The notes under the pieces are model-generated. The model saw nothing but the letters and a program-made list of their open reading frames with translations, made no database searches and was not told the DNA's origin. From IMG/VR virus record IMGVR_UViG_3300010354_000400, positions 1 to 29,829 of that record: 29,829 nt of DNA; one strand, 5' to 3'. Below are positions 9,013 to 29,585 of this stretch, piece by piece. The stretch is from a virus. Position numbers and translations under genes: made by a program. How positions within the stretch are numbered: position 1 is the first letter of the stretch; every line of letters begins with the position of its first letter.

Positions 9013-12000
9013 ATGATAAATGAAAATGAAACAACTGGATCTTTAGGACCAATTACCATAACTTTCGGCAAATTTAGTCCACCTCATGTGGGTCATCATG
9101 GTGCTGCTCAGTTTGGAGCAGATTATGCTAGAAAAAATAATATGGACTTCAGAGTGTATACAAGCAAAAAGCACATGAAGAAATTAAAAACACCAAGACC
9201 ACACGCAGAAACTCCACTCAGTCCAGAACAAAAAGCAAAACATCTTCCAAGAGTTCTTGGTGTCGATAAAGTTCATTTTGAAGAAAGTCCATATTCAACA
9301 ATAGAGAGCTTACTCGCTGCTGGTCATTCTCATGTACATATAATTCTTGGTTCTGACCGCATAGAAGATACTGCTCCAGGATTACGAGAAAAATACGGAG
9401 ATAGAGTTGTTCCTGTTCAGTTTGGAGAAAAAAGATCAGAAGGTAAAAAGGGTATTGCTGGTGCATCAAGCACAAAGATGCGTGAACATGCAAGAGCAAA
9501 CAACTTTGAAGCATTCAAAGGAATGTTACCAGGACATGTACCAGAAGACCACGCAAGAGAAATGTTCAGTGATGTTCGTGGTGGTTTAAAAGCAGCAAAG
9601 TTAGATTTAGTAGAGAATACAAATCGTAAATTTAGTCGTAAAGAACCACTATTCCCATCAATTGAACATGCTGCAGATCACTGGGGTCTTGTTCACATTG
9701 GTAATGGAAAATACCGTCACTTCACTGGTGCTGGTCATGTATTTGGTACTGATGAATTAAAATTCATGCAACACTATGGAGTCATGCGTGACCCAGAAGT
9801 ACAACATCAGTACGAACAAATACTTGGAGAAGAAGTATCTGCACAAACAAGAATTAAACTTTCTCGCATTGCAAAAAGAACTGCAAAGATTCGTGCTGCA
9901 AAAAGAAGAGCGCGTGTTAAAAGAAGAAGAAATGTCAAGCAATTAAAAGGTAGAGCGACACAAGATGTAAAGAATCAACTTCGTCATCGTTATTACAAAG
10001 GAAGTTGGCAGAAGTTAGGATTTTCTACTCGCGCAAGAATTGATTCAAATGTTAACAAGAGAAAGAAAATTGCAGATTCAATGGTTCGCAGAATCTTTCC
10101 AGATGTTATACGAGGAGAGAATGAAAGACTTCGCAAAGTCAATACAAGAAAAGAATCAGTTGAGGAATTGCTTCTTCCATTATTAACAGAAGCAAGAATA
10201 GGTCAAAGAAAATTAAGATCTGGTAAAATTGGTGCAAATAGTGCAGCAGAGAGATCGGGTGCACGCAAAAGAAAAAGAAAACAAAGAGCAAAAGAAGACG
10301 CATCAAAAAGCACAGGAAAAACAACAGGCTCTGTTAAAGGTCATTATGCAGTAGTTCGTGCTACCTCTGGTAAGAACGAAGGTGATCTTATGATTGTAGA
10401 TCGTCATTCATACAATTCAAGAGTTCATGACATTGTTGTTGCTCCAGATAAGTTCACAATGGCAGCTGGTGAAAAATTACTTGATGATGAAAACTTCACA
10501 CAAACAGATTCATCTGTCTCTCTCTTTGGAAAAATAAAAGGAGAGAAATCAGCAAAACTTCCAGCAAATAAACAAGAAGCAAAATTTGCTGAACCAGCAA
10601 AAAAAGCAAAAGCAAAAGCAAAAGCAGAAAAAGAAGATAAGGGACCAACACCAGAACAAAAGAAAGCACAAAAACAAATGATGCCAGAAGAACCTGGTGA
10701 ATGGGATGTTGTTCCTGGTAATATTGTTGCAAAAAGAAAACAAGGAAGATATGACACTGAAGCAACATCACATGATGCTTCAACTCTTGAACTTGGTCTT
10801 ATTGCAAGTGTGAACATGGCACTGGGAATGGATCCAAAAACTCAAGTCTCAGAAGGATTAATGTCAAAAGATGATATGATGAAAGTAATTAAAAATCCAC
10901 ATCAATCATTTTTACCAGCAGCGCAAAAAATTGCACAAGCAGTAATTAAAAAGTTTGGTCCAGGAATATCAATCCAATCAACAGGTAAAACTATAGAAGG
11001 TGTTGACTTAACAAAAGAAGCACAAGCAGCAGGAATAGTAAGCAAAACTGCAAAGACCGATGCATTAATCAAAGAAAGAAAAACAGGAAAAATAGTTTCT
11101 AGAGCTTCTGTAAAAATTGGTGATGAAACACAAGCAGCATCTGGTAATTGGCAAGACACTCATAGAGGATTGCAAGTTTCAATTGATGTAGCAAAAGAAC
11201 TTGGAATAAAAGTTCCAGAAAAAGCACAGAAAAAAATAAAAGAAATGCAAGAATTTCTTGCTAGTGATGAATATGGAGGAACTTCTCTTACAACAGCAGG
11301 ACCAACAGAGTTATATACAGTTGGTGGAAACAGAGGAGTATTTAAAGGCGAAGACAAAAGAATTTTAAGCAAAGAAAAATCAAATCAAAAATTAACTGAT
11401 ATGTATAATGATTTTGAAAAGAGTTTCCCAGAGATTGCTGCAATATACAAATACGTTCAAGTAACAGGTATTCACAAATTTGATAAAGATAGTCCAGCAG
11501 TAGCAGACACAATGCTTGCATCAACACTTGACGGTACTCAAGTCAAAATTGAACCAATCACAGTTGATCTGATGAAAAAAACTAATTCGCAATTAATATC
11601 AAGATTTAAATCTGGAAGAGTAAAAGGAAGTAAGGCAGAGGAAAAAGAAGTACAAAGATTAATCAAAATTGCTGAAAGTCAAGGGAAAAAAATTCAAGCA
11701 GAAGAGTTAAGAAAAATATATGCATACAGAAATGTTGCTAGACTGTTAATGGAATCTAAGTTTGAAAAAGCAAACGAAAACTACGACACAACCCCTTTGA
11801 CTAAACTTGATGGATTTCAACTATTAAAGATGTTAGTAGAAAATGCATATGAAGATTCCATGACTCAAATTGACACACCAGAACTGCCACCAGATCAAAT
11901 AAAAGCAGCACTTGAAGATATGAAGCAAATTGCTGAACAAAATCCACTCATGTGGTTTGAGATAATGTATCCATTATTCGAATACGAAATGACACCAACA

Positions 12001-12384
12001 ACAATCAATTGGTTAGATGTTTTACGAACAGATGGATACACAACAAATAAAGTGTATATAAATGGTAGAGAAATTCTAATACCAGTTGAAACACCAATGA
12101 ATTATCCTGCACCTGGAATGGAAATTCCAACGGTCAATGTCGAAGAATCATATCTAACAGAGAAAAGAAATTATCGCAAAGAATATGATAATTATCATGG
12201 CAAACCAGAGCAGAGAAAGAATCGTGCTGGAAGAGTAAAAGCAAGAAGATTAATGATAAAGATGGGAAGAGCACGCAAAGGTGACGGCAAGGATATAGAT
12301 CATAAAGACGGAAATCCAAGAAATAACGGAAAGAACAATCTACGAGTTCGTAGCAAATCAGCAAATAGGGCAGACAATGATTAA
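9013..12384 (+). CDS. Large multidomain protein: nucleotidylyltransferase, basic modules and C-terminal HNH-like domain
   Basis: This 1123-residue protein is a chain of modules. Residues 12-190 are a cytidylyltransferase-like domain with HVGH (25-28), LGSDRIED (112-119) and a late SSTKMR motif (152-157). Residues 280-375 are a very basic helical module (IAKRTAKIRAAKRRARVKRR). Residues 394-510 form another unit. A Lys/Ala-rich linker follows (520-545). Residues 615-760 contain KTDALIK...RASVK, which may be a degenerate PD-(D/E)XK-like core. Residues 1053-1123 are HNH-like, with DGKDIDHKDGNPRNN. Candidate prohead-protease sites ([L/I]xE) fall between modules: LGE 271-273, LTE 391-393, LME 912-914, LTE 1048-1050. 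I read it as a late head-cargo polyprotein. This is inference; it could also work uncut. Confidence 0.8.
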   Translation: MINENETTGSLGPITITFGKFSPPHVGHHGAAQFGADYARKNNMDFRVYTSKKHMKKLKTPRPHAETPLSPEQKAKHLPRVLGVDKVHFEESPYSTIESLLAAGHSHVHIILGSDRIEDTAPGLREKYGDRVVPVQFGEKRSEGKKGIAGASSTKMREHARANNFEAFKGMLPGHVPEDHAREMFSDVRGGLKAAKLDLVENTNRKFSRKEPLFPSIEHAADHWGLVHIGNGKYRHFTGAGHVFGTDELKFMQHYGVMRDPEVQHQYEQILGEEVSAQTRIKLSRIAKRTAKIRAAKRRARVKRRRNVKQLKGRATQDVKNQLRHRYYKGSWQKLGFSTRARIDSNVNKRKKIADSMVRRIFPDVIRGENERLRKVNTRKESVEELLLPLLTEARIGQRKLRSGKIGANSAAERSGARKRKRKQRAKEDASKSTGKTTGSVKGHYAVVRATSGKNEGDLMIVDRHSYNSRVHDIVVAPDKFTMAAGEKLLDDENFTQTDSSVSLFGKIKGEKSAKLPANKQEAKFAEPAKKAKAKAKAEKEDKGPTPEQKKAQKQMMPEEPGEWDVVPGNIVAKRKQGRYDTEATSHDASTLELGLIASVNMALGMDPKTQVSEGLMSKDDMMKVIKNPHQSFLPAAQKIAQAVIKKFGPGISIQSTGKTIEGVDLTKEAQAAGIVSKTAKTDALIKERKTGKIVSRASVKIGDETQAASGNWQDTHRGLQVSIDVAKELGIKVPEKAQKKIKEMQEFLASDEYGGTSLTTAGPTELYTVGGNRGVFKGEDKRILSKEKSNQKLTDMYNDFEKSFPEIAAIYKYVQVTGIHKFDKDSPAVADTMLASTLDGTQVKIEPITVDLMKKTNSQLISRFKSGRVKGSKAEEKEVQRLIKIAESQGKKIQAEELRKIYAYRNVARLLMESKFEKANENYDTTPLTKLDGFQLLKMLVENAYEDSMTQIDTPELPPDQIKAALEDMKQIAEQNPLMWFEIMYPLFEYEMTPTTINWLDVLRTDGYTTNKVYINGREILIPVETPMNYPAPGMEIPTVNVEESYLTEKRNYRKEYDNYHGKPEQRKNRAGRVKARRLMIKMGRARKGDGKDIDHKDGNPRNNGKNNLRVRSKSANRADND

Positions 12385-14159: not shown

Positions 14160-14534
14160 ATGTTAAAATTAAATAGTGATAATTTTATTCTTTATGCGAT
14201 GAAGATGTATAATAGCACATCATCCTCTGGTCTTACTGAATTTTATGAAGATATTAATCGAATAAAATACATTAAAAGACTGTTGATAAAGTATAAAAAA
14301 AATCATGATTTAAAAGAAAGACTTATTCTTAATCATATAATAATATTACAAAATGTATTTGGTGCAGAAGCGTGTTCTAGAATTTTATTTCATAAAATTC
14401 ACAAGGATTTACATTCATATTTAAAATCGTTTTTGGCATACCTACAATATCTACCAAAGTATATACCAGAGGTAGATATAACAACTATAAATACTGACCA
14501 CAGAATTGATAAAATTTTAAGAGAATTAAAATGA
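14160..14534 (+). CDS. Conserved-looking helical protein of unknown function
   Basis: The 124-residue protein is all-helical and lacks low-complexity sequence. It contains LTEFYEDINRIKYIKRLL and LKERLILNHIIILQNVFGAE. I recall this pattern ('F..DL.RIKYIKRL' with 'LKERLILNHII') from conserved small proteins of T4-like marine phages whose function is unknown; I cannot verify it here. It overlaps the following ligase-like gene by ATGA. The low-complexity-free, well-packed look suggests an ordinary soluble late protein and not head cargo. Confidence 0.75.
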   Translation: MLKLNSDNFILYAMKMYNSTSSSGLTEFYEDINRIKYIKRLLIKYKKNHDLKERLILNHIIILQNVFGAEACSRILFHKIHKDLHSYLKSFLAYLQYLPKYIPEVDITTINTDHRIDKILRELK

Positions 14535-15955
14535 TACATGTAATAGATCTGATAAAACAAATTACTTACATCACAGAAGCAGCGGAAGCAGAAACAACTG
14601 GTCACATGACTCACATGTCTGACTGGAAACTTTATGGCAATTCTATGGAAGATCTAGAACACGCAGAAGCAATGCACAGATTTATGAATGGTCAAGAAAC
14701 AGAAGGTCACAGTGTATCCTGGAAGATAGACGGTGAGACTAGTTTAACCTTTGGTAAAAAGCAAGACGGTAGACATTTTGTTGCTTACAAAAGCGCAAAG
14801 AATCATTTTCATACTCCAGAAGAAATAGAAGCAGCAGGAGTTCCTTGGGCAGAAGCAGGAAAAAGATTATTAAAATATGTGACTGAGATGAATATTAAAC
14901 CAGGTCATGTATTTCAAGGTGATTTGCTGTGGACTAACCGTGACAAAGAAATTCATGACGGGACACATATAAAACCAAATACTATTCCGTATAAACCAAC
15001 TCATCATGATGTAGGTATTGCTGTACACAGTCAATATGAAATGGATCATGCTGGCAATTTAAATAGAACAACAAACGCACCAGAGGTTTCACAAATTAAA
15101 CATGAAAAAGTATTTGCTCCAGATTTACAAATCAAACCTGGTCAAATAATGCTCACAAGAGAACGAAACAAAGCAGTTGGTGAATCTCTCACAAAAGCAA
15201 GATCTCTAATGACACCAGAGGTTCAAGAGTATGCAAATTCACTTGCAACCAATAAAAATATGCAAAAGTTCATACAAGAGTATGCAAATGAAGTAGTTGC
15301 AACTACTGGTAAGAGAGATGTTGAGTCGTTAAAAACATATCTTCATAAACCAATCATGGGCACAAGAACATCTTATGGGTATATGGAGAAAGCAACACAA
15401 AGAAACAAATCAGAAAAAAGCAGAGCAGGACTTGTAAAAGAAATAGAAGATCACATAAACCAACACGGTGATAAGTTATCAGCAATGTTCCAATCAATGC
15501 AACATGTTGCTGATGCAAAACACCACATGCTAGATCAATTCAAGGCACATGGTCACACAGCACCATTACAAGTTCATGGTGGTGGAGAACACGAAGGTGT
15601 GGTTTCAGCGTTTGCTAAAAAGAAACCAGGAATGATTAGTGGAATTATTGGTCGTCTTGCAAAACTCACCAGAGAAGGAATATCTGGATTCAGTGCAAGA
15701 AACCGTAGACGAGGTGTTGAAAAGGGATACACCAAAGAACGTGAAATTCCTCACCCAGAAGTACCATTTATCGAAAACAACAATCTTAAAGAAGAAATGG
15801 CAGTTGGTACTGGTGCTGGTCTTGCAGGACTTGGTGGACCAAAAGATGTTGCAGTTCCTGTTGAAGCACAGAAGCGTTACACTCGCTCTGGTCCAATGAG
15901 AAGAAAAAGAAAGATTGCAGAGTCTTTTTTAAATTCCAATAACTTCATGAAATAA
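14531..15955 (+). CDS. Ligase-like nucleotidyltransferase with capsid-targeting-like N-terminus
   Basis: The 474-residue protein begins with a leader ending ITYITEA (residues 11-17), with a predicted cut after ITE. Residues 58-200 look like the adenylation fold of ATP-dependent ligases and capping enzymes: K65-I-D-G68 fits the KxDG nucleotide-attachment motif, GRHFVAYKS (about 80-88) fits the following strand, and HVFQGDLLW (about 125-133) resembles the ligase 'xEGE'-type motif. Residues 230-340 are helical. The C-terminal part is basic and Gly-rich (RLAKLTREGISGFSARNRRR), with a NLKEEMAVGTGAGLAGLG segment. Phages carry RNA or DNA ligases, but activity here is unproven. It overlaps the preceding gene by ATGA and overlaps the antisense resolvase gene by 27 bases at the end. 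Confidence 0.7.
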   Translation: MIHVIDLIKQITYITEAAEAETTGHMTHMSDWKLYGNSMEDLEHAEAMHRFMNGQETEGHSVSWKIDGETSLTFGKKQDGRHFVAYKSAKNHFHTPEEIEAAGVPWAEAGKRLLKYVTEMNIKPGHVFQGDLLWTNRDKEIHDGTHIKPNTIPYKPTHHDVGIAVHSQYEMDHAGNLNRTTNAPEVSQIKHEKVFAPDLQIKPGQIMLTRERNKAVGESLTKARSLMTPEVQEYANSLATNKNMQKFIQEYANEVVATTGKRDVESLKTYLHKPIMGTRTSYGYMEKATQRNKSEKSRAGLVKEIEDHINQHGDKLSAMFQSMQHVADAKHHMLDQFKAHGHTAPLQVHGGGEHEGVVSAFAKKKPGMISGIIGRLAKLTREGISGFSARNRRRGVEKGYTKEREIPHPEVPFIENNNLKEEMAVGTGAGLAGLGGPKDVAVPVEAQKRYTRSGPMRRKRKIAESFLNSNNFMK

Positions 15956-16483
15956 TTGCTTACAGATATAGTATGAATCAACTATATCGCTAACAGGACT
16001 ACCGATCATTGTCCTATTGGGTGTTATCATAGTCTGTAAATCAATTTTAGTTTCATCAAAGAAAGATTTGAACATCATTTCTTTATCTGAATTTCCTTTA
16101 CCAGTTGCTAATTTTTTAACAACAGTTGGTTCTATAATATCTACTGGAAGAGATGCTTGATACAGTTTATATTTTAATATTCCTGTGTTCTCTGCAATAT
16201 TAAACACTCTACCAGTGGCATTGTATGCGTACCCTTCTAGGGCGATTCTAGAGCATCCAATGACTACCCTCATCACCCAGTCAGATATTGAACCGTAACG
16301 CTCGCAATCCCCATCGTAGTCGTCAAACAACTCACCATGAATATTGCCATGAAATGTAGTTGCATATTTTTTAATATCTGTGAGATAATAAAATGAACAA
16401 TTATTAAAATTAAATTTGTTCTTTGTGTCGAAGACACAAATGGAAGGACCGTTTAAAGAATAATCAATTCCAGCAATATGCAT
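15929..16483 (-). CDS. RuvC-like Holliday-junction resolvase
   Basis: The 184-residue protein has the RNase-H-like RuvC core. Acidic residues are D7 (HIAGIDYSLNG), E83 (ALEGYAYN), and D166 and D169 (VSDIVDSYYICK), matching the four catalytic acids of RuvC. A GKGNSDKEMM motif lies in between. It should resolve branched DNA before packaging, the role of endonuclease VII (gp49) in T4. Two in-frame ATGs exist (16489 and 16483). I chose the second because the protein then starts MHIAGIDYS as in the family, and because the late box ATAAATA would place the RNA start between the two. It is a single minus-strand gene between plus-strand blocks. Confidence 0.85.
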   Translation of the reverse strand: MHIAGIDYSLNGPSICVFDTKNKFNFNNCSFYYLTDIKKYATTFHGNIHGELFDDYDGDCERYGSISDWVMRVVIGCSRIALEGYAYNATGRVFNIAENTGILKYKLYQASLPVDIIEPTVVKKLATGKGNSDKEMMFKSFFDETKIDLQTMITPNRTMIGSPVSDIVDSYYICKQLFHEVIGI

Positions 16484-16492
16484 AATCATATA

Positions 16493-16499
16493 TATTTAT
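16493..16499 (-). promoter_or_regulatory. Late promoter ATAAATA for the resolvase gene
   Basis: The minus strand reads CATAAATATAT just before the resolvase start. The box ends 9 bases before the preferred ATG at 16483 and 3 bases before the alternative at 16489. No Shine-Dalgarno site is visible. Confidence 0.6.
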
Positions 16500-16511
16500 G
16501 GAGAAATTCAG

Positions 16512-17030
16512 ATGAACAGATCACAAATAGAAAAATTCAAACAAGCTTTGGGTAAAGTATTTGAAAATGACGAAGGTAGATGGGACAGAGATAAAAGAAT
16601 AAAAGCAGAAGAAGCAGCAAAGCAAGCGGAACAACAGAGAAAAGCAAAAGAACAGCAAGATAGAGTTAAAGGTTGGGGTTCTCAAGATTTTATGTCTGAT
16701 GAAGACAGAGCAAAGAAAGGTCTTCCACCAGCAGAGAGTACACCACCCCCACAAGCACCAAATCCAAAACTTTCTCCAAGCGGATCGTACCTAGAAACAA
16801 ATCCAAAATTTGATTTCAAAAAAGCAGGACAAGACTTAGCAGCAAAAGACGCTGCTGAAAAAGCAAGAAAAGAAGCAGCAGATAAAGCGTGGATGCAAGA
16901 CCAAGACGCAAAAGCAGCAAAAAGAGAAAAACAAGACAGACAAGATGTATTTAAATGGCGTATGAAGCAATTAGGTACAGAGGATAGACCTGGAAGTTAT
17001 TATGGGGAAACCAATCCAAATGAAAGATAA
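16512..17030 (+). CDS. Coiled-coil, Ala/Lys/Gln-rich protein
   Basis: The 172-residue protein is almost wholly charged helix: residues 28-52 (RIKAEEAAKQAEQQRKAKEQ) and 105-150 (AAKDAAEKARKEAADKAW) should form coiled coils, with a Pro-rich linker between (about 74-90). The N-terminus (QIEKFKQALGKVFENDEG) is a weak match to the targeting leaders of the left-hand genes. No family was recognised; a scaffold-like or internal virion role is possible. A GGAG site precedes the ATG. It forms a one-gene unit closed by a strong terminator. Confidence 0.7.
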   Translation: MNRSQIEKFKQALGKVFENDEGRWDRDKRIKAEEAAKQAEQQRKAKEQQDRVKGWGSQDFMSDEDRAKKGLPPAESTPPPQAPNPKLSPSGSYLETNPKFDFKKAGQDLAAKDAAEKARKEAADKAWMQDQDAKAAKREKQDRQDVFKWRMKQLGTEDRPGSYYGETNPNER

Positions 17031-17048
17031 AAACTAAATCATAAAAGA

Positions 17049-17074
17049 AAAAGGGGTCTTACGACCCCTTTTTT
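17049..17074. terminator. Bidirectional terminator
   Basis: AAAAGGGGTC (17049-17058) pairs with GACCCCTTTT (17063-17072) around TTAC, with T-runs on both strands. It sits between the converging coiled-coil gene and the tubulin-like gene and can end both transcripts. Confidence 0.9.
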
Positions 17075-17076
17075 GT

Positions 17077-18267
17077 TTACTCAAACGGATGTTTTTCGTC
17101 AAACATCTTATTATCAAAATTTAATTTAAACTGTTCCAGTCTCTTTGCTGGTATCTTTAACCCAGACACAAGAGTATATAACCGTAGAGTTGGTTTGTCA
17201 TCCTCGTATATGCCTCTGTGGAAGGTCGCATTTGGCACTAGGGACGATAGGGTATCAAACCCATAAGATAGACTGTCCATGAGTCCTGGGGTGTTTGCCA
17301 TCAATTCCTTGCCACCAACAGCACAACAAGCAGCAAATGTACCATTTGAGATATCAATTTCAGCAAGAAGAGTCTTGTCTATATTACTTTTAATTGATTT
17401 TGAGATTTCAGTTTCATTTGAAGTCTTGGATGCTGGTTTATTTCCATCAATGTTCATCTTAGACACACCCATTACCATCACACCACCACAACGGAAGGTT
17501 GTAGCGTAATCAGTTGGATCAAACGAGGTGTATTGAGAAGGATGCTTGGAAAGTACATTAAAGATATGAAACAAACCAGAAACTGTACTGTTTATAGTAT
17601 TCCAGAATTCCTTGACTGTTAGATTGCTATACATTTTTTCAATTCTAGCATTGTCAAGAATAACAAGAGGTGATATTTCCTTGCGTTCTGCTTGACCACC
17701 TATTTGTTTGAGAACTCGGTAAGCGTTATAAGAAACCTTTGGGGATGTGGACTCACCGCGAGTAGGTAGAGACATGACAACACCTACACGCTCTTCTGGG
17801 TTATCATGACCAATGAACTTCATATACTTCTTTGCAATGTCAATTAGTACAAGTGATGAACCGCTTCCGCTACCACCACCAGCACCAATACAAACCATAA
17901 TGTGGTCCACTTTTGTGCCATAGACTTTACGCATGAGATCAAATATCTCTTGTTTGTATTTGACTGTTGCATTTGCTCCACGCTCCATATCTTTTCCTGC
18001 ACCCTCTTCTCCTATATCTAATAGAAGTTTTTGTGTATCTGGAATGCCTAAAAGTGCAAGATCCTGTTTAGATGTATTGACTGTTATGCATTTCTTATAT
18101 CCACGGTCGTAGAAAGCCTTTGCAAGTCTTCCACCACCCTGACCAGAACCTATCCATGCAAATACATGTGATCCGCCACTCTCGTCCTGTACTTCTTCCT
18201 GTACAGAATCTGGTTCTTTATAATCTTCTAACTCTAGGTCTGGTATTTGTAAATCGGGAATATCCAT
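17077..18267 (-). CDS. Tubulin/FtsZ-superfamily GTPase
   Basis: The 396-residue protein has the full set of tubulin/FtsZ loops in order: T1 GSGQGGGR (40-47), T3 GEEGAGKDMERG (86-97), the T4 signature GAGGGSGSG (128-136, the FtsZ GGGTGTG region), T5 PTRGE (168-172), T6 VILDNARI (202-209) and helix H7 (WNTINSTVSGLFHIF). T7 is FDPTDYATTF with D250 and D253, the acids that drive GTP hydrolysis in the next subunit. It should therefore form dynamic filaments. An acidic 33-residue N-terminal extension (IPDLQIPDLELED) is unusual. Phage tubulins are known for centring or transporting phage DNA (PhuZ, TubZ). AAGGAG precedes the start, 9 bases after the cohesin-like gene, so it is the last gene of a late operon. 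It is much nearer to FtsZ in motif shape than to eukaryotic tubulin. Confidence 0.9.
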   Translation of the reverse strand: MDIPDLQIPDLELEDYKEPDSVQEEVQDESGGSHVFAWIGSGQGGGRLAKAFYDRGYKKCITVNTSKQDLALLGIPDTQKLLLDIGEEGAGKDMERGANATVKYKQEIFDLMRKVYGTKVDHIMVCIGAGGGSGSGSSLVLIDIAKKYMKFIGHDNPEERVGVVMSLPTRGESTSPKVSYNAYRVLKQIGGQAERKEISPLVILDNARIEKMYSNLTVKEFWNTINSTVSGLFHIFNVLSKHPSQYTSFDPTDYATTFRCGGVMVMGVSKMNIDGNKPASKTSNETEISKSIKSNIDKTLLAEIDISNGTFAACCAVGGKELMANTPGLMDSLSYGFDTLSSLVPNATFHRGIYEDDKPTLRLYTLVSGLKIPAKRLEQFKLNFDNKMFDEKHPFE

Positions 18268-18276
18268 TTTTTCTCC

Positions 18277-19578
18277 TTAAGGTAATATACCGTTAACTGT
18301 TGCTCCGTTTTGTGCTCCAAGAACACTGACTCCTGGAATACTGCTGCCAATTGGCATAGATTCATCGGATACCCATAGACCAATAAATCTTGGATCATTT
18401 TGTTTTGCAATTTCAATCTTTGTTGTATTGAAGTCTGCAACAACTTTAAAGTTTAAAGTAACAATTAAAGTTTCTTTATCATAAAAAGTTTTATTTCCAA
18501 GTTGACTCAACCAATTATGTGATGCATTACCATCCTTTGGTACTGAAGATTCATTAATGTTTCCTGCACCTGGCATTGGAAGAGCATTTTCCATGCTTGG
18601 TGGTGCACCAGTTTTATTTAATCCTGTAAATTCAAGAACATTTGGATCCCAAACAAAGTTGGTGCATACAGATGAAAGCAGTTGTGGCTTTGTCTCTGGT
18701 TTAATCATAATCTGAACTGGAATCGTATCACCAATCTTAAACTTAGTAACTGGTGCTTTCAAGTAATGAGCAACCTTGTAATCTGCTGGAACACCAAACA
18801 TAATTTGCTCACCTTGGTTTCGAGTTTCCTTCAAAACGTTTGTGCCAGTTGTTGGGCTTCCATCAATCTTGGTTGTGATTGTGTTTCCTTGACTTATGGT
18901 TGTTGGGAGTGTTCTGATGAATGCTCTCTGTTGTCCCCATACAGGTAGATAAAAATCATCCTTGACCAAGAATCGAATTTTTCCTAGAAGACGATATCCA
19001 CCTTGCCACATATATCCATCAAAGTTCCATTGATAATACATTGGTTTTAGTGATGGGGTGCGTAATTCTGGTGCTTTCAGTGCTTCTGAGTGAAAGAGAA
19101 ATACGCCATCACTGAGCATTGTCTGTTGTACCTTTGTTGCATCCATAACATTTTTATCAAATGCTGGACCAAAAGCAGTGGTATCAACTGGTAATAACTC
19201 TAATCTGGTGTGATCGTATTGTACTACAACATCAGATGAACGATAAATGCTGAACATAGCAACAGTTTTACCGTTCACAACTTTTGTCTTGGTAATGGGC
19301 ATTGCCATAATATCTGCTGTTATGATCTGTCCTTTGTGAGCAATTTGCCCGTATCTAGTGTTACCATTCCATGTTTTATTTGCCCAATCACAAGAGAGAT
19401 ATAGTTGATATCCAATTGTAGGATCAATAAAATATGGTGTATATACAGTTGCAGGGGGAACTGGAACTAACTGAATTGTTCCATCTGGTTGCGGAACTTT
19501 AGTTGGTGGTGTTTGTGCATCCACTGAAAATGTAATTACAAACGCAAACAGTAAACCTAGTAAATTTTTAATTTTCAT
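18277..19578 (-). CDS. Exported protein with cohesin-like domain
   Basis: The 433-residue protein has a clear signal peptide (MKIKNLLGLLFAFVITFSVDAQ, likely cut after about residue 21). The body is beta-rich and Trp/Tyr-containing. The C-terminal third (about residues 280-420) resembles a cohesin-type beta-sandwich: KIGDTIPVQIMI, then VWDPNVLEFTGLN, later LIVTLNFKVVADF, as in 'yDp..lef' cohesin motifs. No anchor or C-terminal barrel signal is seen, so it is probably periplasmic, released, or attached by binding. A secreted beta-sandwich protein in a phage late operon is unusual. AAGGAAATC precedes the start, which overlaps the nuclease gene by 11 bases. The N-terminal domain is unidentified, and the cohesin call is moderately sure. 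Confidence 0.75.
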   Translation of the reverse strand: MKIKNLLGLLFAFVITFSVDAQTPPTKVPQPDGTIQLVPVPPATVYTPYFIDPTIGYQLYLSCDWANKTWNGNTRYGQIAHKGQIITADIMAMPITKTKVVNGKTVAMFSIYRSSDVVVQYDHTRLELLPVDTTAFGPAFDKNVMDATKVQQTMLSDGVFLFHSEALKAPELRTPSLKPMYYQWNFDGYMWQGGYRLLGKIRFLVKDDFYLPVWGQQRAFIRTLPTTISQGNTITTKIDGSPTTGTNVLKETRNQGEQIMFGVPADYKVAHYLKAPVTKFKIGDTIPVQIMIKPETKPQLLSSVCTNFVWDPNVLEFTGLNKTGAPPSMENALPMPGAGNINESSVPKDGNASHNWLSQLGNKTFYDKETLIVTLNFKVVADFNTTKIEIAKQNDPRFIGLWVSDESMPIGSSIPGVSVLGAQNGATVNGILP

Positions 19579-19963
19579 ATGATTTCCTTTTTTCTATTAA
19601 TAAACTGAAATCTTTATTTTTTGCATCACCGTTATACTCCCAAGCATAACCTTTTTCAATCAGTAATTTATTGATGCAAATATTATTATCTCCATAAATT
19701 TCTCCAAGTATTCTTCCGTACTTGTCATCCTTTGTAGTTCTAATTTTTAAATTGTTTTGATTAATTAACCAAATTGCAAGAAACTCTTTTGCTTCTGATG
19801 CAAGAATTCTTTCTTGATCATTTTTGCTATTTGATTCTGGTGTATCCACCCCAGTGAGTCTAGTTCTTTCCTTGTGAAAAACATTGAACCCTAGATCAAA
19901 TAAAATATCTACAGTGTCACCGTCAACAACTCTGAGAATTTGTTTTATTGCATATTCATACAT
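19568..19963 (-). CDS. Thermonuclease-like (SNase-family) nuclease
   Basis: The 131-residue protein matches the staphylococcal-nuclease fold: VVDGDTV (12-18), R35 and LTGVDTPE (36-43, including D40 and E43), YGRILGEIY (82-90, R84), and KGYAWEY near the end. The catalytic R35, E43 and R84 are all present. It lacks a signal peptide, so it acts in the infected cell, perhaps in host DNA or RNA breakdown, or after lysis. The start at 19963 was preferred to an in-frame codon 8 residues upstream because the late box CATAAATA ends 5 bases before it. It overlaps the end of the glycosyltransferase transcript region and the start of the exported gene. Confidence 0.85.
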   Translation of the reverse strand: MYEYAIKQILRVVDGDTVDILFDLGFNVFHKERTRLTGVDTPESNSKNDQERILASEAKEFLAIWLINQNNLKIRTTKDDKYGRILGEIYGDNNICINKLLIEKGYAWEYNGDAKNKDFSLLIEKRKSYEN

Positions 19964-19967
19964 ACGA

Positions 19968-21023
19968 CTATTTATGCTTACAACCAAGTAACTTTACCCA
20001 TTCCCTAGTTGCCTTATCATTCCATTTATTTAAAAGCATTTTATTTATTCTATTTAATCCATATTTTCCAAATTTAGTTGCCAATTTCATAGCACCTAAA
20101 GCATCAGACGAAGAATTTGTTTGTACCTTACATAAAGAATTTACAAAAGAAATTTCAGTAGAAGCAACAATAGGAATTCCCTTGTGGATGAAATCAGCAG
20201 CAGTGATATTAAAAGTTTCACTAAAAGAAACTTGCATTCCAAGGTCCATCTGACCAACTAAATTTAAAAAATCAGCATGAGGATACCAGGGGTGCTCGAC
20301 CAATCTAGAGTCTTGTCTATCTTTAAATAAATTTCTTAAATTAGACAGAACATTTGAAATACCATGTTGTGCTGAATTTGCCTCATGCTCAGAAACATTA
20401 ATGTGTACTGCAACTGGTTGTTGAATCTCTTTTGCAAATTCTATTGCCCATACTGCTTGCTGTAGATGGTTTTTGAGTGGTCGTAATGCACCAAATATTC
20501 CAATATGAAACTCATCAGTATCTCTCACATATGGAACAGAAGAGGAACAATTGGATGAAGGATAATAAATGTTTGGAGAATAAGTTATATTATGTCCGTA
20601 TATACTTTTTAAATTTTTATAGAACTCTTCGCTGTTTGCAGTTAATTCTATATCAATCCCTTCTTTTCGTAAAAGCATATACTGATTCATCCAATCAAAT
20701 GCAATACCCTCTGTTGCAATGAATGGACTTTTTGAATGTAGTCTTATATGCCATTTAACATTTGGGTGCAACTTTGATAATATTCTAAACTTATCAGGAA
20801 CAACCCATATTGCTTCTATGAAAACATCTGTTGGTTTAAACAGATGAACTTCTTTGTCTATGCAATTATTATCAACAACTTGCACAACTTTAGATTCTAT
20901 TCCAAGTTCTTGCAATTTTCTTGCAACAAAATCACAAGAGTTATATAACCCATATGCTTTTGTCATCTGACCGTATGCATATCTTTGTTTTATAACAAAA
21001 AGAACTTTTCTTTCTTTTGACAT
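19968..21023 (-). CDS. Glycosyltransferase (GT-B, family 4-like)
   Basis: The 351-residue protein has a two-domain GT-B layout. The C-terminal domain shows FHIGIFGALRPLKNHLQQA (about residues 172-190), a linker strand, and MDLGMQVSFSETFNITAADF (about 260-279) followed by GIPIVAS. The ExxxxxxE-like pattern of GT4 enzymes is only partly kept (SETFNITAADF). It should transfer a sugar from a nucleotide-sugar donor; the acceptor may be DNA, virion protein or cell-surface glycan. It has no membrane segment. AAAGGAATTCC is the ribosome site. A TATACATA box at 21041-21048, one base off the late consensus, may start this operon, after the terminator that ends the upstream unit. Confidence 0.8.
   Translation of the reverse strand: MSKERKVLFVIKQRYAYGQMTKAYGLYNSCDFVARKLQELGIESKVVQVVDNNCIDKEVHLFKPTDVFIEAIWVVPDKFRILSKLHPNVKWHIRLHSKSPFIATEGIAFDWMNQYMLLRKEGIDIELTANSEEFYKNLKSIYGHNITYSPNIYYPSSNCSSSVPYVRDTDEFHIGIFGALRPLKNHLQQAVWAIEFAKEIQQPVAVHINVSEHEANSAQHGISNVLSNLRNLFKDRQDSRLVEHPWYPHADFLNLVGQMDLGMQVSFSETFNITAADFIHKGIPIVASTEISFVNSLCKVQTNSSSDALGAMKLATKFGKYGLNRINKMLLNKWNDKATREWVKLLGCKHK
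19969..19976 (-). promoter_or_regulatory. Late promoter-like CATAAATA inside the glycosyltransferase 3' end
   Basis: CATAAATA on the minus strand overlaps the stop codon of the glycosyltransferase and ends 5 bases before the nuclease start at 19963. The nuclease, cohesin-like and tubulin-like genes can therefore be transcribed late without the glycosyltransferase. Confidence 0.6.
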
Positions 21024-21040
21024 GGAATTCCTTTTATTAG

Positions 21041-21048
21041 TATGTATA
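21041..21048 (-). promoter_or_regulatory. Possible late promoter TATACATA
   Basis: TATACATA on the minus strand differs by one base from TATAAATA, between the terminator at 21053-21078 and the glycosyltransferase start. It is plausible because the upstream unit ends at that terminator, but it is unconfirmed. Confidence 0.35.
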
Positions 21049-21052
21049 AAAG

Positions 21053-21078
21053 AAAACCCCCGCTTTCACGGGGGTTTT
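21053..21078. terminator. Bidirectional terminator
   Basis: AAAACCCCCG (21053-21062) pairs with CGGGGGTTTT (21069-21078) around CTTTCA, with T-runs on both strands. It ends the minus-strand replication/metabolism unit after the outer-membrane protein gene, 23 bases downstream of its stop. Confidence 0.9.
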
Positions 21079-21101
21079 CGAGAAGGAAGAATTGGTTGAA
21101 T

Positions 21102-21860
21102 TTAGAACTTAAATCCAACACCAAATGACATTACAGTATCCATGTCCTCAAAATCAAGATCATCGGTGACTGCAAATCCTACGCCAGCATTTAGCGCAAC
21201 GTTATTAGCAATGTTATATGATGCATTTGGTCCAACAACAATAACATTTTGACCATCAGTGTAAAATTGTGAAAGTTCTCCACCAACCTTAAACTTGTCA
21301 GATACCTTGTACTTGACTGAAGTAGTTGCTTCAAAAACATTATCTTCCACAAATCCACCAAACACGGGCATGTAAGTATAGTCATTGACTAGAGTATACT
21401 TGACTGTTTGATTAACATCAACATCACCCCAAGATAGTCCAAATACAGCACCACCCGAGAAAGTTGCATCACTTGATGAATAATCACCATCAAGTGGTAG
21501 TGCTACTCCACCAACAAGGTCTACCCAAACCTTGTCGAAAGTAAATGCCTTCTTATATTTAAGACCAACTTGGACATCGCCTAGTCCAGTTGAATATCCA
21601 GAAAAATTATTATCACTGTTATTATAAATTGGGAGATTAATATCTGCTTGAATATTTTCGTCAATATTAAAAGCGAGAGTTGTATCCCATTGTGTGATAT
21701 CGCCACCATCGAAGTTATAAATTGTTACTTCTTCGTTGATGCTAATCTTAAAAGTGTCCGCACAGCAACTTTCCTTGTTCTGTGCTTCTTGTGCCATTGC
21801 AAATCCGTTTGCAAAAAGTGCTACGAGTGCTGATAATACGATAGTTGAGAATTTCTTCAT
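21102..21860 (-). CDS. Phage-encoded outer-membrane beta-barrel protein
   Basis: The 252-residue protein has a typical signal peptide (MKKFSTIVLSALVALFANGF, cut near AMAQ). The mature part is a series of alternating beta-strands: YSTGLGDVQVGLKYKKAF, KVWVDLVGGVALPL, FEATTSVKYKVSDKFKVGGE, and others. It ends SFGVGFKF with a terminal Phe, the sorting signal of outer-membrane barrels. A Cys pair (SCCAD) follows the leader. It resembles porin-like or 'transporter' barrels. It may alter the host surface, for example to exclude other phages, or help uptake; the sequence does not tell. AAGGAG lies before the start. It is the last gene of the RNR unit and is closed by a terminator. Confidence 0.85.
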   Translation of the reverse strand: MKKFSTIVLSALVALFANGFAMAQEAQNKESCCADTFKISINEEVTIYNFDGGDITQWDTTLAFNIDENIQADINLPIYNNSDNNFSGYSTGLGDVQVGLKYKKAFTFDKVWVDLVGGVALPLDGDYSSSDATFSGGAVFGLSWGDVDVNQTVKYTLVNDYTYMPVFGGFVEDNVFEATTSVKYKVSDKFKVGGELSQFYTDGQNVIVVGPNASYNIANNVALNAGVGFAVTDDLDFEDMDTVMSFGVGFKF

Positions 21861-25009: not shown

Positions 25010-25998
25010 TCACATTTTCTCCATATATTAAATGCTAACAGTGCTGATACACCTCTGAATGTGTTTGCTTCGATTATATCACAAGGATTAATTTCAGACA
25101 ACACCATATCATTTATATCTTTAACTTTCATATCTGATGGATAAATACAAATTTTTTCACCATTCGATATTAGAGTTTTCATAATATTTGCTACATTTCT
25201 ACTTCTTGGTTCATTATCAATGATGAAGATCAAATCTTCATTTGGGAAAACCTTTCTAATTTCTAGAAAATTTCCTAGACCCAAGCAAGCAACAGCGTTG
25301 GGAAGAAACAGACTGTCTATCGGACCCTCCACAACAAAGATAGGTTTGCTCTTGTCTACAGTATCCAACCCATAAGTTAATTTTACATTCTCTGTTTTTT
25401 TAAGAGTAATATATTTTGGTTTTATATTTCCAATAGATCGACCCTGGATTCCAATACATTGATTATGCTCATCAAATACAGGAATTAATATTCTTTCATC
25501 CTGTTCAAGTAAATTTGCATATTGAGAATTAAATGTCTTTGCAAAGATACCAAATTGACTTGTGAATCCAAATCTATCCCATTTATTCTCTGGTATCTTT
25601 CTCTTCTTTAAAAATTTAATTGCAACATGATCTGGTGGTAATTCTTCAATTAACTGATATTTAACTTGAGAGGTTATCTTCTCTTGTTTTTCAGTTTGAA
25701 CATCATCAAAAATAACTTCATGTTTCTCCTTAAATTTTTCTAAACAGTATTGTTTGAATAGAGAAGGAGAAACAATTTCTAAAAATTTGTAGATGTTATA
25801 CGAGACTCCACAATTGTGACATTTATAAAAATAACTGTCAGTATTGCTAAAAAAATATCCTCTTGCTTTACTTCTATTCAATTCAGAATCACCACAAATT
25901 GGACATCTACAATTTGCAAGATTAACTTTCTTCCACTTAAATTTTTCAAGAGAAGTGGAAACTAAGTTTACATATTTTTTATCAACGTAAAGAGACAT
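25006..25998 (-). CDS. 61: DNA primase (gp61-like)
   Basis: The 330-residue protein has an N-terminal zinc ribbon (C32-x2-C35 and C60-x2-C63) and a Toprim domain with E224 (VVEGPIDSL) and D261-N-E263 (FIIDNEPRSR). Between them lies the RNA-polymerase core (LLEQDERILIPVFDEHNQ). It makes RNA primers for lagging-strand synthesis together with the gp41 helicase. The start at 25998 makes an ATGA overlap with the gp41 gene; a possible start four codons earlier is less likely. The length is close to T4 gp61. The gene order gp43-uvsX-gp41-gp61 matches T4-like phages. Confidence 0.92.
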   Translation of the reverse strand: MSLYVDKKYVNLVSTSLEKFKWKKVNLANCRCPICGDSELNRSKARGYFFSNTDSYFYKCHNCGVSYNIYKFLEIVSPSLFKQYCLEKFKEKHEVIFDDVQTEKQEKITSQVKYQLIEELPPDHVAIKFLKKRKIPENKWDRFGFTSQFGIFAKTFNSQYANLLEQDERILIPVFDEHNQCIGIQGRSIGNIKPKYITLKKTENVKLTYGLDTVDKSKPIFVVEGPIDSLFLPNAVACLGLGNFLEIRKVFPNEDLIFIIDNEPRSRNVANIMKTLISNGEKICIYPSDMKVKDINDMVLSEINPCDIIEANTFRGVSALLAFNIWRKCE

Positions 25999-27383
25999 CA
26001 GAACTTCCAAGAATCAACATCATTTGATTTAACAAATGATTTACCAGATGAAGTCATTTGTGTTTGTTTGTTTGATGCAGGAATAATTGCTGCTTCTTCT
26101 TTCTTAATATCAAACACCTTCATCTTTGCACGATTAATGCCAAGAATGAATTTACGGTTTGCTGCCGTATCATTATATCTGTTCTTGAGTTGTTTAACCA
26201 TAATTTGATTTAGTTCTGCAAGTTCATCTGTTGTGATTAGCGCAAACATAAAGTCAGCAGTTGCAGGAAGACCAAACGACTCTGATGTATCCTCAAGACC
26301 AACATCAGTGCTTGAATATCCTGATCGTGTTGTTTGTGTAGCACTAAACAGTGGTACACCATATTCTACTGCAAGACCACGAAGTTCTTCTGCAATCGAC
26401 TTAACATACATGTATGAGTTTACATTATTACCATTCTTCAGACGAGCAGAAGCACAGATATTAAGATAATCCACAAAGATAATGTCTGGTTTAAATTTAC
26501 GCTTAAGTGCAAGTTCGTCTAAGAGAAATCTAAAATGATTTACATTTGCTGTCGCAGTTGGATACTCTTTAATGATAAGTTTACCCTTCACACCAGCACT
26601 CAAGTTATTCATCTTCTTTTCATAGACGGACTTTGGTAGTTGTCGCAAATTATCAAGAGTAACATCAAGAAGATTTGCATCAATTCTTTCTGCAATTCTT
26701 TCTTCTGCCATCTCACATGTAATGTACAAAACATTTTGATTTTGTTTCAAACAATTTGCTGCATGATGGCAAAGGAACATAGACTTACCAACACCAGTTC
26801 CTGCCATAACAATATTAAGAGTTTTTGTAGGAGTTCCGCCATTTGTAATTTGATTGAAAAAATCTAAATCAAATGGTATGCGCTTCTCTACGGTATGATA
26901 AAAATCAAAACGCTTCTCGTAGTCTTCTATGTAATCATGACCAATATGAACATCAAAAGAGACAGCAAGTGCCTTTGATAAAATATCAGGAATTGAACCC
27001 TGCGCTTGTTGAGACTTGCCATCAATAATTTGAATGGATTCCATAATTGCATTATAGACTGCTTTTTCTTTACAGAAGTTTTCTGTTTCATTGAGCAACC
27101 ATTCGTTATCACATGTCTCCTTAGTATTCGATATTTCTTCAATGATCGATGAGACACGTTTCATTTCCTCCTGTGTTATGCTTTTATTTTTGTCAAGTAT
27201 AATATATAGTGCTTCTTTTGTTGGAAGATTATTATACTTGATTATAAAATCATGAATGGTTTCAAAAACAAATCGTAATGCTCTGTCATGAAAATACTCC
27301 CTTTTGATAAAGGGAGTTGCTTTTCGTGAATAGGTTTCATTCTTGATTAGGTTGTGGAGTATCAGTTTTTCAATGTCTGTCAT
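25998..27383 (-). CDS. 41: Replicative DNA helicase (gp41-like, DnaB family)
   Basis: The 461-residue protein is a hexameric 5'-3' helicase that moves on the lagging strand and binds gp61. The Walker A motif AGTGVGKS is at 194-201 and Walker [10 protein letters not shown] at 301-309 with D305. [14 protein letters not shown] (221-234) and the SATQTTRSG motif near residue 350 are typical of the DnaB/gp41 RecA-like domain. The N-terminal 140 residues form the helical collar, and the tail ends NDVDSWKF. It overlaps the uvsX gene by ATGA (27380-27383) and the primase gene by ATGA. Confidence 0.95.
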
Positions 27384-28423
27384 TCTTCATCCTCTGGTGT
27401 TTGTTCGCCACCATAACTAAACTTATTGTACACTGCCTTCTCAATCTGGTCAAGCACATCCTTTGTAAAATACTTTTCAGGATTGTCATAGATCGTCTTT
27501 TCAAACACCTTTGATCCGTCAGGTAGTTCAATGCGAGTAGAATTCTTTTTAAAGATTCCACCTTCTACAGCAATATCAACAAGACCATAATAAGGATCAA
27601 GACCGCTATCGTAGTTCAAGCGCAGATCTACCATACTATTTTCTTTAGTAAATCTTCCCTTGTATAGTTTAGCATGAACAATATTACCAACTACTTCTCC
27701 ATCAGCGTTCTTATCCTTCTTCTTTGAAAGATAAACAATAGTTGATGCTGCATATTTAAGACCAGTACCACCACCCATCTCAGACATTGGAACATATGCA
27801 CCAACGACTTGATAAGTGTGATTCGTCATAATCATAGGAATCTTTGCAATACCCAACTTGACTGTAAGTACACGGAATGTTGACTTGACAATTTGTGCGC
27901 GAGTCATGTCGCGTGTCTCTTTACCTTCGGCAGTGTCATTCATCTCTTTAGATGTTGACAACATGCCAAGAGAATCAAGAACAATCATTGTAGGCTTACG
28001 GTCTTCTTCTGCGAGTTCAAGATACTTATCAACAATAGTAATTGCTTGATGACGAAACTCTTCAATTGTTGCCACAGGAAATACTGCTACACGCTTTGGA
28101 TCAATACCACGCTTCTTAAACATCTCTGATGTAACTGCTTGCTCTGAATCAAAGTAAAGAACAACAGCATCGGGATTATCCTTTAAAAACTTAGATACAA
28201 TACCAAGAGTAAAATAAGTTTTACCAGTAGAAGACTCTCCAGCAAGAGCAAGAATTTTATTATTGGGAAGACCACCATAAATGCTTGCAGATAATAGACC
28301 ATTAAAAATATAACAACCAGTATCTACAAATCCATTGACATCTGATCCATCTAACCCATCTGCTACTAGCGATGCGTATTTATTTCCAGAAGATTTAACC
28401 ATAGACGATAAAAAATCACTCAT
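27380..28423 (-). CDS. uvsX: Recombinase UvsX (RecA family)
   Basis: The 347-residue RecA-like recombinase carries out strand exchange and recombination-dependent replication. Walker A is GESSTGKT at 63-70 and Walker [10 protein letters not shown] with D150. The segment [20 protein letters not shown] followed by [12 protein letters not shown] is the DNA-binding loop region of UvsX. The start at 28423 was chosen because AAAGGAATATT precedes it and the protein then begins [12 protein letters not shown], as UvsX does. An in-frame start six codons earlier lies inside the polymerase gene end. It is 10 bases from the polymerase stop and overlaps gp41 by ATGA. Confidence 0.95.
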
Positions 28424-28433
28424 AATATTCCTT

Positions 28434-29585
28434 TCAACCAAATAGGTTTTCTAGTGTAGACTTTCGCTCTGTTGACCACCCAATAGTATCTAGAATAGTT
28501 GTCAGAGGATCAATAAAAGATTTCTCAAATTGAACTTTAGAATCAATATAATCTTTTAGATCAAATTCTTTGGGAAGAGTATTTGGAAAAGAAATTACCT
28601 GATCTTCCCCCCGTGCTCCACCAAGAGGATTTGGTTTCTTGAGAATGAGATATTTGATCTTATCCCCCTCTCCAATCTTCTTGTACTTCTTTCCCAACTT
28701 AAGTTTATCAAGATAATGATTGTAGATCAAAGCACCCTTGACTGCAATGGGTGTTGACTTCTTGTATATTGTATTAGCATCAAAATATTTCTTCATGCCA
28801 TTAACACTGCGAGGAAATGCCATTTGATCTGGAGGTAGTGCATAGAATTCTTCTCTACACTTCTCAACAAAATCAATCAGTTCACTCTCAGTGCCATTCA
28901 TGGTGATATTGATTGCTGTCTTCAAATGTTTACGAACAAACTCAGGAGTCGAACTGCGTGTTGTTTCAATGCCCTTGATCTTAAGTTTTGGTTCATTGTA
29001 ACGAACGCCTTCAGAGTCAAGCACATTGAGCATATATCTTTTCTTTGCAGTCCATATTCCACGGTCTGCAATGACCTCTCTGCCCATCTGCATACGGTTT
29101 TCGTATGCATTCATCTTTGCTGCAAGTTCTTTAAACTTCTTATCAATATATGGAAGTATAATTTCCTCTGCTGCTTTGTTTAGAAAGTCAACAATAGTTT
29201 TGGTATCTGGTTTTGATACTTTTGTTTCACCATCAAACATTGAAACGGATGGGTACACCTTCTCTACAAGATTATTTAAACAAAGATAAACTGAGTCTGT
29301 ATCTGATGCGATAACATAATCAACATCAGTTGTTCCTACTGCTTTGTTGAGATACTTATTAAGTTCTTGACCAATCCATTGAATTGACAATTGACCTGAC
29401 AGAGTAATTGCCTCTGCGAGTTCAGTTGAATAATATCGAAAGTATTGATTGCCTATCGCACCATATGCAGAATTTAATTGAATCTTTCTTACAAGTTGAA
29501 AATTATGATACTTAGAAATATCATTCTCTGTTTGCTTCTTCAACTCAATCAATTCTGCATTGGATAATTTAGATAGGTCTTTCAT
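28434..29585 (-). CDS. 43B: DNA polymerase, C-terminal part of a split gp43 (family B)
   Basis: The 383-residue product covers only the C-terminal half of a family B polymerase. Motif B is [19 protein letters not shown] (about 34-52). Motif C is IASDTDSVY, with two Asp that bind catalytic metals. [10 protein letters not shown] follows as in motif KxY, then the thumb up to ENLFG. The exonuclease domain and motif A are absent. T4 gp43 is about 900 residues. The start (29585) has an ATGA overlap with an unrelated 81-codon gene, so the gene is genuinely separate. Split gp43 genes are known in some T4-like phages and act as two-chain enzymes. The N-terminal partner should lie beyond the right edge of the window. 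No Shine-Dalgarno site is close, so translation may rely on coupling. Confidence 0.9.

Follow-up and report, generated by a model that had tools for sequence, protein, structure and literature searches.

The tubulin encoded in the window analysed here, a 29,829-base IMG/VR virus record that is itself a fragment, is a member of a large family and no oddity. The family represents a third phage-tubulin lineage, spread over more than 100 contigs of T4-like phages and with no cellular member found, and we think the odds somewhat better than even that its proteins form TubZ-type filaments which, in the lytic cycle, hold phage DNA or the sites of its replication or packaging in position, or move them, with a conserved N-terminal tail serving as the docking peptide. 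Reviews describe phage tubulins from jumbo phages (PhuZ), from plasmid-like phages (TubZ) and from phage c-st (PMC7950403; PMC7824862; PMC13282480); in the open-licence papers that we searched, we found no description of tubulins from marine or T4-like phages.

The open reading frame almost certainly encodes a GTPase of the Tubulin/FtsZ family, taking the family assignment alone. The tubulin fold is assigned on the strength of profile matches: the protein scores 43.5 bits against the Pfam Tubulin domain PF00091 (curated cut-off 33), a domain matched by 28 of the 28 family members scanned. A preliminary description of this DNA had placed the gene correctly, leaving out its strand, which is the minus strand, and both the GAGGGSGSG signature at residues 128-136 and the aspartates D250 and D253 that it reported in the T7 loop are indeed there. 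In tubulin-type GTPases the acidic residues of T7 act across the subunit interface to hydrolyse GTP, and dynamic filaments are formed. The aspartate pair shows no variation in a 13-row alignment of diverse phage members or in a 28-row alignment, and the GTPase looks active by sequence. Conservation within the family spans the whole GTPase core, and since dN/dS between the window and its close relatives is as low as 0.03-0.06, a sign of purifying selection, the tubulin gene is more than a product of chance. Part of the family carries a signature loop of the form GxxGGSGGG, for example GVAGGSGGG in the 13-row alignment, and it is possible that GTP turnover is altered in these proteins. The variant, as GVAGGSGGG or GIAGGSGGG, was seen in loci L043, L055, L074, L080 and others like them, with the T7 aspartate pair kept.

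Table 1. Features of the tubulin locus and of the degenerate paralog; positions refer to the window unless another contig is named.
Feature	Position	Strand	Evidence or remarks
Phage tubulin (TubZ-like GTPase), 396 aa	17077..18267	-	PF00091, TubZ-Bc profile match, tree, dN/dS
Ribosome-binding site AAGGAG, just 5' of the ATG at 18267	18273..18278	-	Sequence
T1 loop GSGQGGG, residues 40-46	18130..18150	-	Nearly invariant (13-row and 28-row alignments)
Tubulin signature loop T4, GAGGGSGSG	17860..17886	-	Invariant among close relatives
T7 catalytic loop YTSFDPTD, residues 246-253, with D250 and D253	17509..17532	-	Asp pair invariant in alignments
Conserved N-terminal acidic motif, residues 2-16 (DIPDLQIPDLELEDY), likely docking peptide	18220..18264	-	
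Variable acidic linker from motif to GTPase core, residues 17-31	18175..18219	-	pN 0.299
Exported protein with signal-like N-terminus, directly upstream of tubulin	18277..19578	-	No Pfam, no PHROG
Intrinsic terminator ending the tubulin unit	17048..17073	-	11-pair stem, then T run; fold z-score -4.91
Intrinsic terminator after the porin-like gene	21052..21079	-	12-pair stem
T4-like gp41-type helicase	25998-27383	-	PHROG 19, 411.6 bits
UvsX/RecA	27380-28441	-	PF00154, 57.7 bits
Degenerate tubulin paralog, 284 aa	L156:1174-2028 (G013, 41174-42028); also L168-L183		

A first scan of viral contigs recovered 17 close relatives of the window tubulin, at 66-93%, a profile scan of IMG/VR viral contigs raised the number of relatives to 91, and a further profile scan of these contigs, centred on a divergent branch, confirmed 138. 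Two scans of genome contigs from 84,980 species yielded no cellular member, although a very divergent cellular relative could escape them because they seek short conserved stretches. The sole match in the genome scans, a distant Woesearchaeota protein at 25% (L153), was rejected as a cellular member, because it carries FtsZ_C and is an ordinary FtsZ. In a search of 50,697 phage records the one convincing, though weak, match was to Bacillus phage G (23%, E 9e-8), and a query from the sister clade again retrieved phage G alone; a search of plasmids gave four weak TubZ-like matches, and the PHROGs held no close family for the phage tubulin. Since isolates, cells and PHROGs yield next to none, the gene belongs, as far as these searches go, almost exclusively to uncultured phages, which, as read from the contig sources, appear to be mostly marine, and the family is apparently confined to viruses.

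We built a maximum-likelihood tree from 29 phage members together with 13 references. All the phage members fall into one clade (support 99/97) that is sister to plasmid TubZ together with phage G (91/90), lies outside FtsZ (99/99) and stands apart from PhuZ; the sister relation to TubZ is moderate evidence, because many of the reference branches are long and drew a long-branch warning from the tool. Aligned as a family with hhalign, the phage tubulins match gp138 of phage G with an E value of 1.2e-18 across nearly the full length, a Paenibacillus plasmid TubZ with 4.6e-18, E. coli FtsZ with 1.4e-11 and PhuZ with 0.003-0.009. Bacillus cereus TubZ-Bc (PDB 4ei7) is the best solved relative by sequence, with CetZ and FtsZ behind it (E 2.7e-14 for the single protein); searched against the PDB, the family profile reaches it at E 1.2e-22. 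The TubZ-like C-terminal domain PF22453 was detected in 18 of 28 members at E values of up to 1, the window protein not being listed among them, and it matched the tubulin of G013, a near-complete genome of the sister clade, with 31.9 bits (cut-off 26). The PhuZ family, PHROG 4733, matched the window protein only at E 0.088. The order of these matches and the tree place the protein on the side of TubZ and not of PhuZ. The tree and the genome scans, with the Woesearchaeota FtsZ at 25% as the only match, also led us to reject a recent copy of a host FtsZ, for which the preliminary description had not taken the gene either.

TubZ proteins pull plasmids apart. With TubZ-Bc and TubZ-Bt (PDB 3m8k) the phage family has in common a T7 loop of the form x[FY]Dx[ST][DE] and, in many members, a match to the C-terminal TubZ-like Pfam domain; unlike the TubZ proteins of type III plasmid partition, however, it is far off in sequence, has an N-terminal motif of its own, lacks the long basic C-terminal tail and belongs to a T4-like phage and not to a plasmid. 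The likeness to the FtsZ-like gp138 of phage G extends to most of the protein, but gp138 has no N-terminal tail, clusters with plasmid TubZ and comes from a 498-kb Bacillus jumbo phage. PhuZ of phiKZ and 201phi2-1, the spindle of the phage nucleus, is likewise a phage-encoded member of the tubulin superfamily that serves the lytic cycle, and by analogy the window tubulin is likely put to a comparable use; the similarity is nevertheless barely detectable, the clade is another one, and the phages are T4-like, with the largest contigs of the family measuring 172-190 kb. FtsZ of bacteria and archaea shares the superfamily and the nucleotide loops, yet the phage proteins fall outside its clade, and their C-terminus bears no FtsZ-type C-terminal peptide.

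The acidic N-terminal extension of residues 1-33, which had been suggested to bind a partner, is both real and conserved. All 66 distinct tails whose T1 loop is complete carry the motif [IVL]Px[LI]x[ILV]E[DA]. None of nine reference tubulins has it, and a nine-residue form of the motif, with an extra position that is Y, F or E, occurs in none of the other open reading frames of the loci (1.64 million residues). Among sequences of the window clade and the next clade, the motif has a mean pN of 0.070, compared with 0.128 for the core and 0.299 for the linker, with pS almost the same in all three, so that residues 2-16 are under more constraint than the GTPase core itself, while the linker that joins the two is the fastest-changing part of the tubulin. 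A motif that is universal and evolves this slowly follows the pattern expected of a docking peptide, and the tail is probably one that binds a partner. In the window clade we identified no adaptor protein.

The gp41-type helicase and UvsX/RecA identify the window phage as T4-like, a label that had been applied to it before and that is right for its replication genes, which also include a gp61-type primase and a family-B DNA polymerase; ThyX and ribonucleotide reductase are encoded as well, and the window contains no terminase or capsid gene. The best matches of the helicase are cyanophages and Methylophilales phages, at ~60%, and the terminase of the sister clade matches that of a Flavobacterium phage at 48%, clues that name no host. 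In the isolates with the nearest terminases, Flavobacterium phage immuto and Microcystis phage Mel-JY01, the terminase region contains no tubulin. Elsewhere in the window, positions 9013-12384 encode a 1123-aa protein with a cytidylyltransferase-like N-terminus and a C-terminal HNH domain, and positions 14531-15955 a DUF6267 protein, often found beside the tubulin in several clades, whose KIDGETS motif is reminiscent of nucleotidyltransferase/ligase active sites.

Two intrinsic terminators bound a unit composed of a glycosyltransferase-like gene, a staphylococcal-nuclease-like gene, the gene of the exported protein and, last, the tubulin, the terminator behind the tubulin being a strong one. 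This order is largely kept in several close relatives, and in several of them the exported protein likewise adjoins the tubulin. The preliminary description had seen here a late operon, which is not established for the window: the leftward run begins with replication and nucleotide genes and has the tubulin at its end, and the late-promoter-like ATAAATA is about as frequent as expected by chance (12 observed against 9.7 expected). The same run of replication and nucleotide genes includes an exported porin-like protein (Phenol_MetA_deg, 21102-21860). For the sister clade a late operon is plausible; in about 50 loci the tubulin stands between genes for small membrane proteins and a block of large terminase, portal and prohead protease, with three genes separating it from the large terminase and portal. 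Because the tubulin follows a replication/nucleotide module in the window clade and accompanies a packaging module in the sister clade, gene order names no single cargo.

The sister clade holds a further tubulin relative. In G013 (171,926 bases), a 284-aa protein with no PHROG, no convincing Pfam domain and no INPHARED match is encoded between DNA polymerase A and gp32/uvsX. Its family, A5, aligns with the tubulin family in hhalign (Prob 92, E 6.5e-7, 171 columns), finds phage tubulins by hmmsearch with a best E value of 2.5e-9 and, in a further search, reaches a true tubulin with a best E value of 2.1e-8; because the hhalign alignments are small (Neff about 2), we regard the homology as well supported, not as beyond doubt. 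Since the signature loop is gone (VVGGGEPVSGISLS) and the alignment to tubulins stops before the T7 region, A5 looks catalytically dead. Its gene lies directly 3' of the polymerase gene in 9/9 loci, followed by gp32 and then uvsX wherever the contig reaches that far. It is present in each of the five sister-clade contigs of at least 60 kb that were tested, and also in two related contigs, one measuring 115 kb, in which no true tubulin was found; it was not found in the window-clade contigs, all of them fragments. G013 also encodes GroEL (71844-73430), a DnaE-type DNA polymerase III alpha (52051-55461) besides its polymerase A, and a long cluster of sugar/LPS-type biosynthesis genes at about 121-147 kb.

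In the reading that we prefer, a T4-like phage would make its own TubZ-type tubulin during lytic infection, and the intact T1, T4 and T7 loops suggest that the protein binds and hydrolyses GTP at the subunit interface and assembles into dynamic filaments; that it would polymerise follows from the known tubulin mechanism taken together with the conservation of these loops. Such filaments may then move phage DNA, or the sites at which it is replicated or packaged, within the host cell or keep them in place, much like PhuZ filaments in giant phages (PMC4244570; PMC13282480). Replicating or packaged DNA offers itself as the context, because the tubulin accompanies the terminase/portal/protease block in the sister clade and A5 sits in the polymerase-gp32-uvsX operon; for DNA positioning, which we infer, this paralog in the replication operon of the sister lineage is indirect help. 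The N-terminal peptide may hold the cargo or an anchor; in plasmid TubZ it is a basic C-terminal tail that serves TubR-tubC in this way. A bolder version, which we consider conceivable but doubtful, is a DNA-moving apparatus of a new kind, in which an active TubZ-type filament with its docking peptide would be joined, in one lineage, by the dead paralog, which would cap filaments or tether them to the phage replisome.

The filaments could, alternatively, deliver proheads to the site of packaging, or keep the packaging machinery in place, instead of positioning DNA. Only three genes lie between the tubulin and the large terminase and portal in the sister-clade loci, and capsids are trafficked by PhuZ filaments in giant phages (PMC13282480), but with the window-clade tubulin placed after a replication/nucleotide module we hold this to be unlikely. 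It seems to us more improbable that the phage tubulin blocks or hijacks host division by co-assembling or competing with FtsZ, the tail binding a partner of FtsZ; interference with host FtsZ had been one suggestion of the preliminary description. Phages commonly target FtsZ, and the core of the tail (in the sister clade, for instance, DIPTL) may resemble the DIP-aromatic core found in the C-terminal peptide of FtsZ; against this, the family forms its own clade, nearer TubZ than FtsZ, its catalytic residues are under strong selection beyond the need of a decoy, and known phage inhibitors of FtsZ are small proteins, not tubulins.

With plasmid TubZ proteins as the closest relatives, and with a review that gives jumbo-phage tubulins a part in chromosome segregation in pseudolysogeny (PMC7824862), the tubulin might also belong to a partition system of the TubZRC type, by which the phage genome would persist as a plasmid in pseudolysogeny, as in plasmid-like phages. 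We looked for the components that define type III partition (PMC7762940). No locus contained a relative of the TubR candidates of phage G, Paenibacillus and Terribacillus, though a divergent TubR could escape this search, or of the MerR/TubY-like protein, and in place of tubC iterons the region 15800-21200 holds only short chance or low-complexity repeats. Chimallin of 201phi2-1 was likewise unmatched in the loci, which include the near-complete G013, the window itself being a fragment. Because no TubR, TubY, tubC or chimallin was found, by these tests, which very divergent forms of the three proteins could escape, the system is neither TubZRC nor a phage-nucleus PhuZ, and we rejected both identifications, the latter also for its weak similarity to PhuZ. 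As the long basic C-terminal tail is missing too, the gene set is that of a lytic T4-like phage, and the sister clade has the tubulin in a late-gene setting, partition in pseudolysogeny strikes us as very unlikely. Least credible of all, and highly unlikely, is a regulatory or metabolic GTPase that has kept the fold and lost the filaments: part of the family does have a variant signature loop, and related phages do encode a clearly degenerate tubulin, but the T7 aspartate pair, which in tubulins acts across the subunit interface, is invariant and the whole core is conserved.

Since a large TubZ-related family exists in T4-like phages, intracellular filaments may not be confined to giant phages. 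Should the dead paralog indeed link filaments to the replisome, non-jumbo phages would possess a replisome-linked viral cytoskeleton with no phage nucleus. Both the N-terminal peptide, conserved as it is, and the degenerate paralog offer direct, testable ways into the question of what the filaments carry, and if the filaments work as we propose, a viral cytoskeleton would be common in lytic phages of ordinary size, without the need of a phage nucleus.
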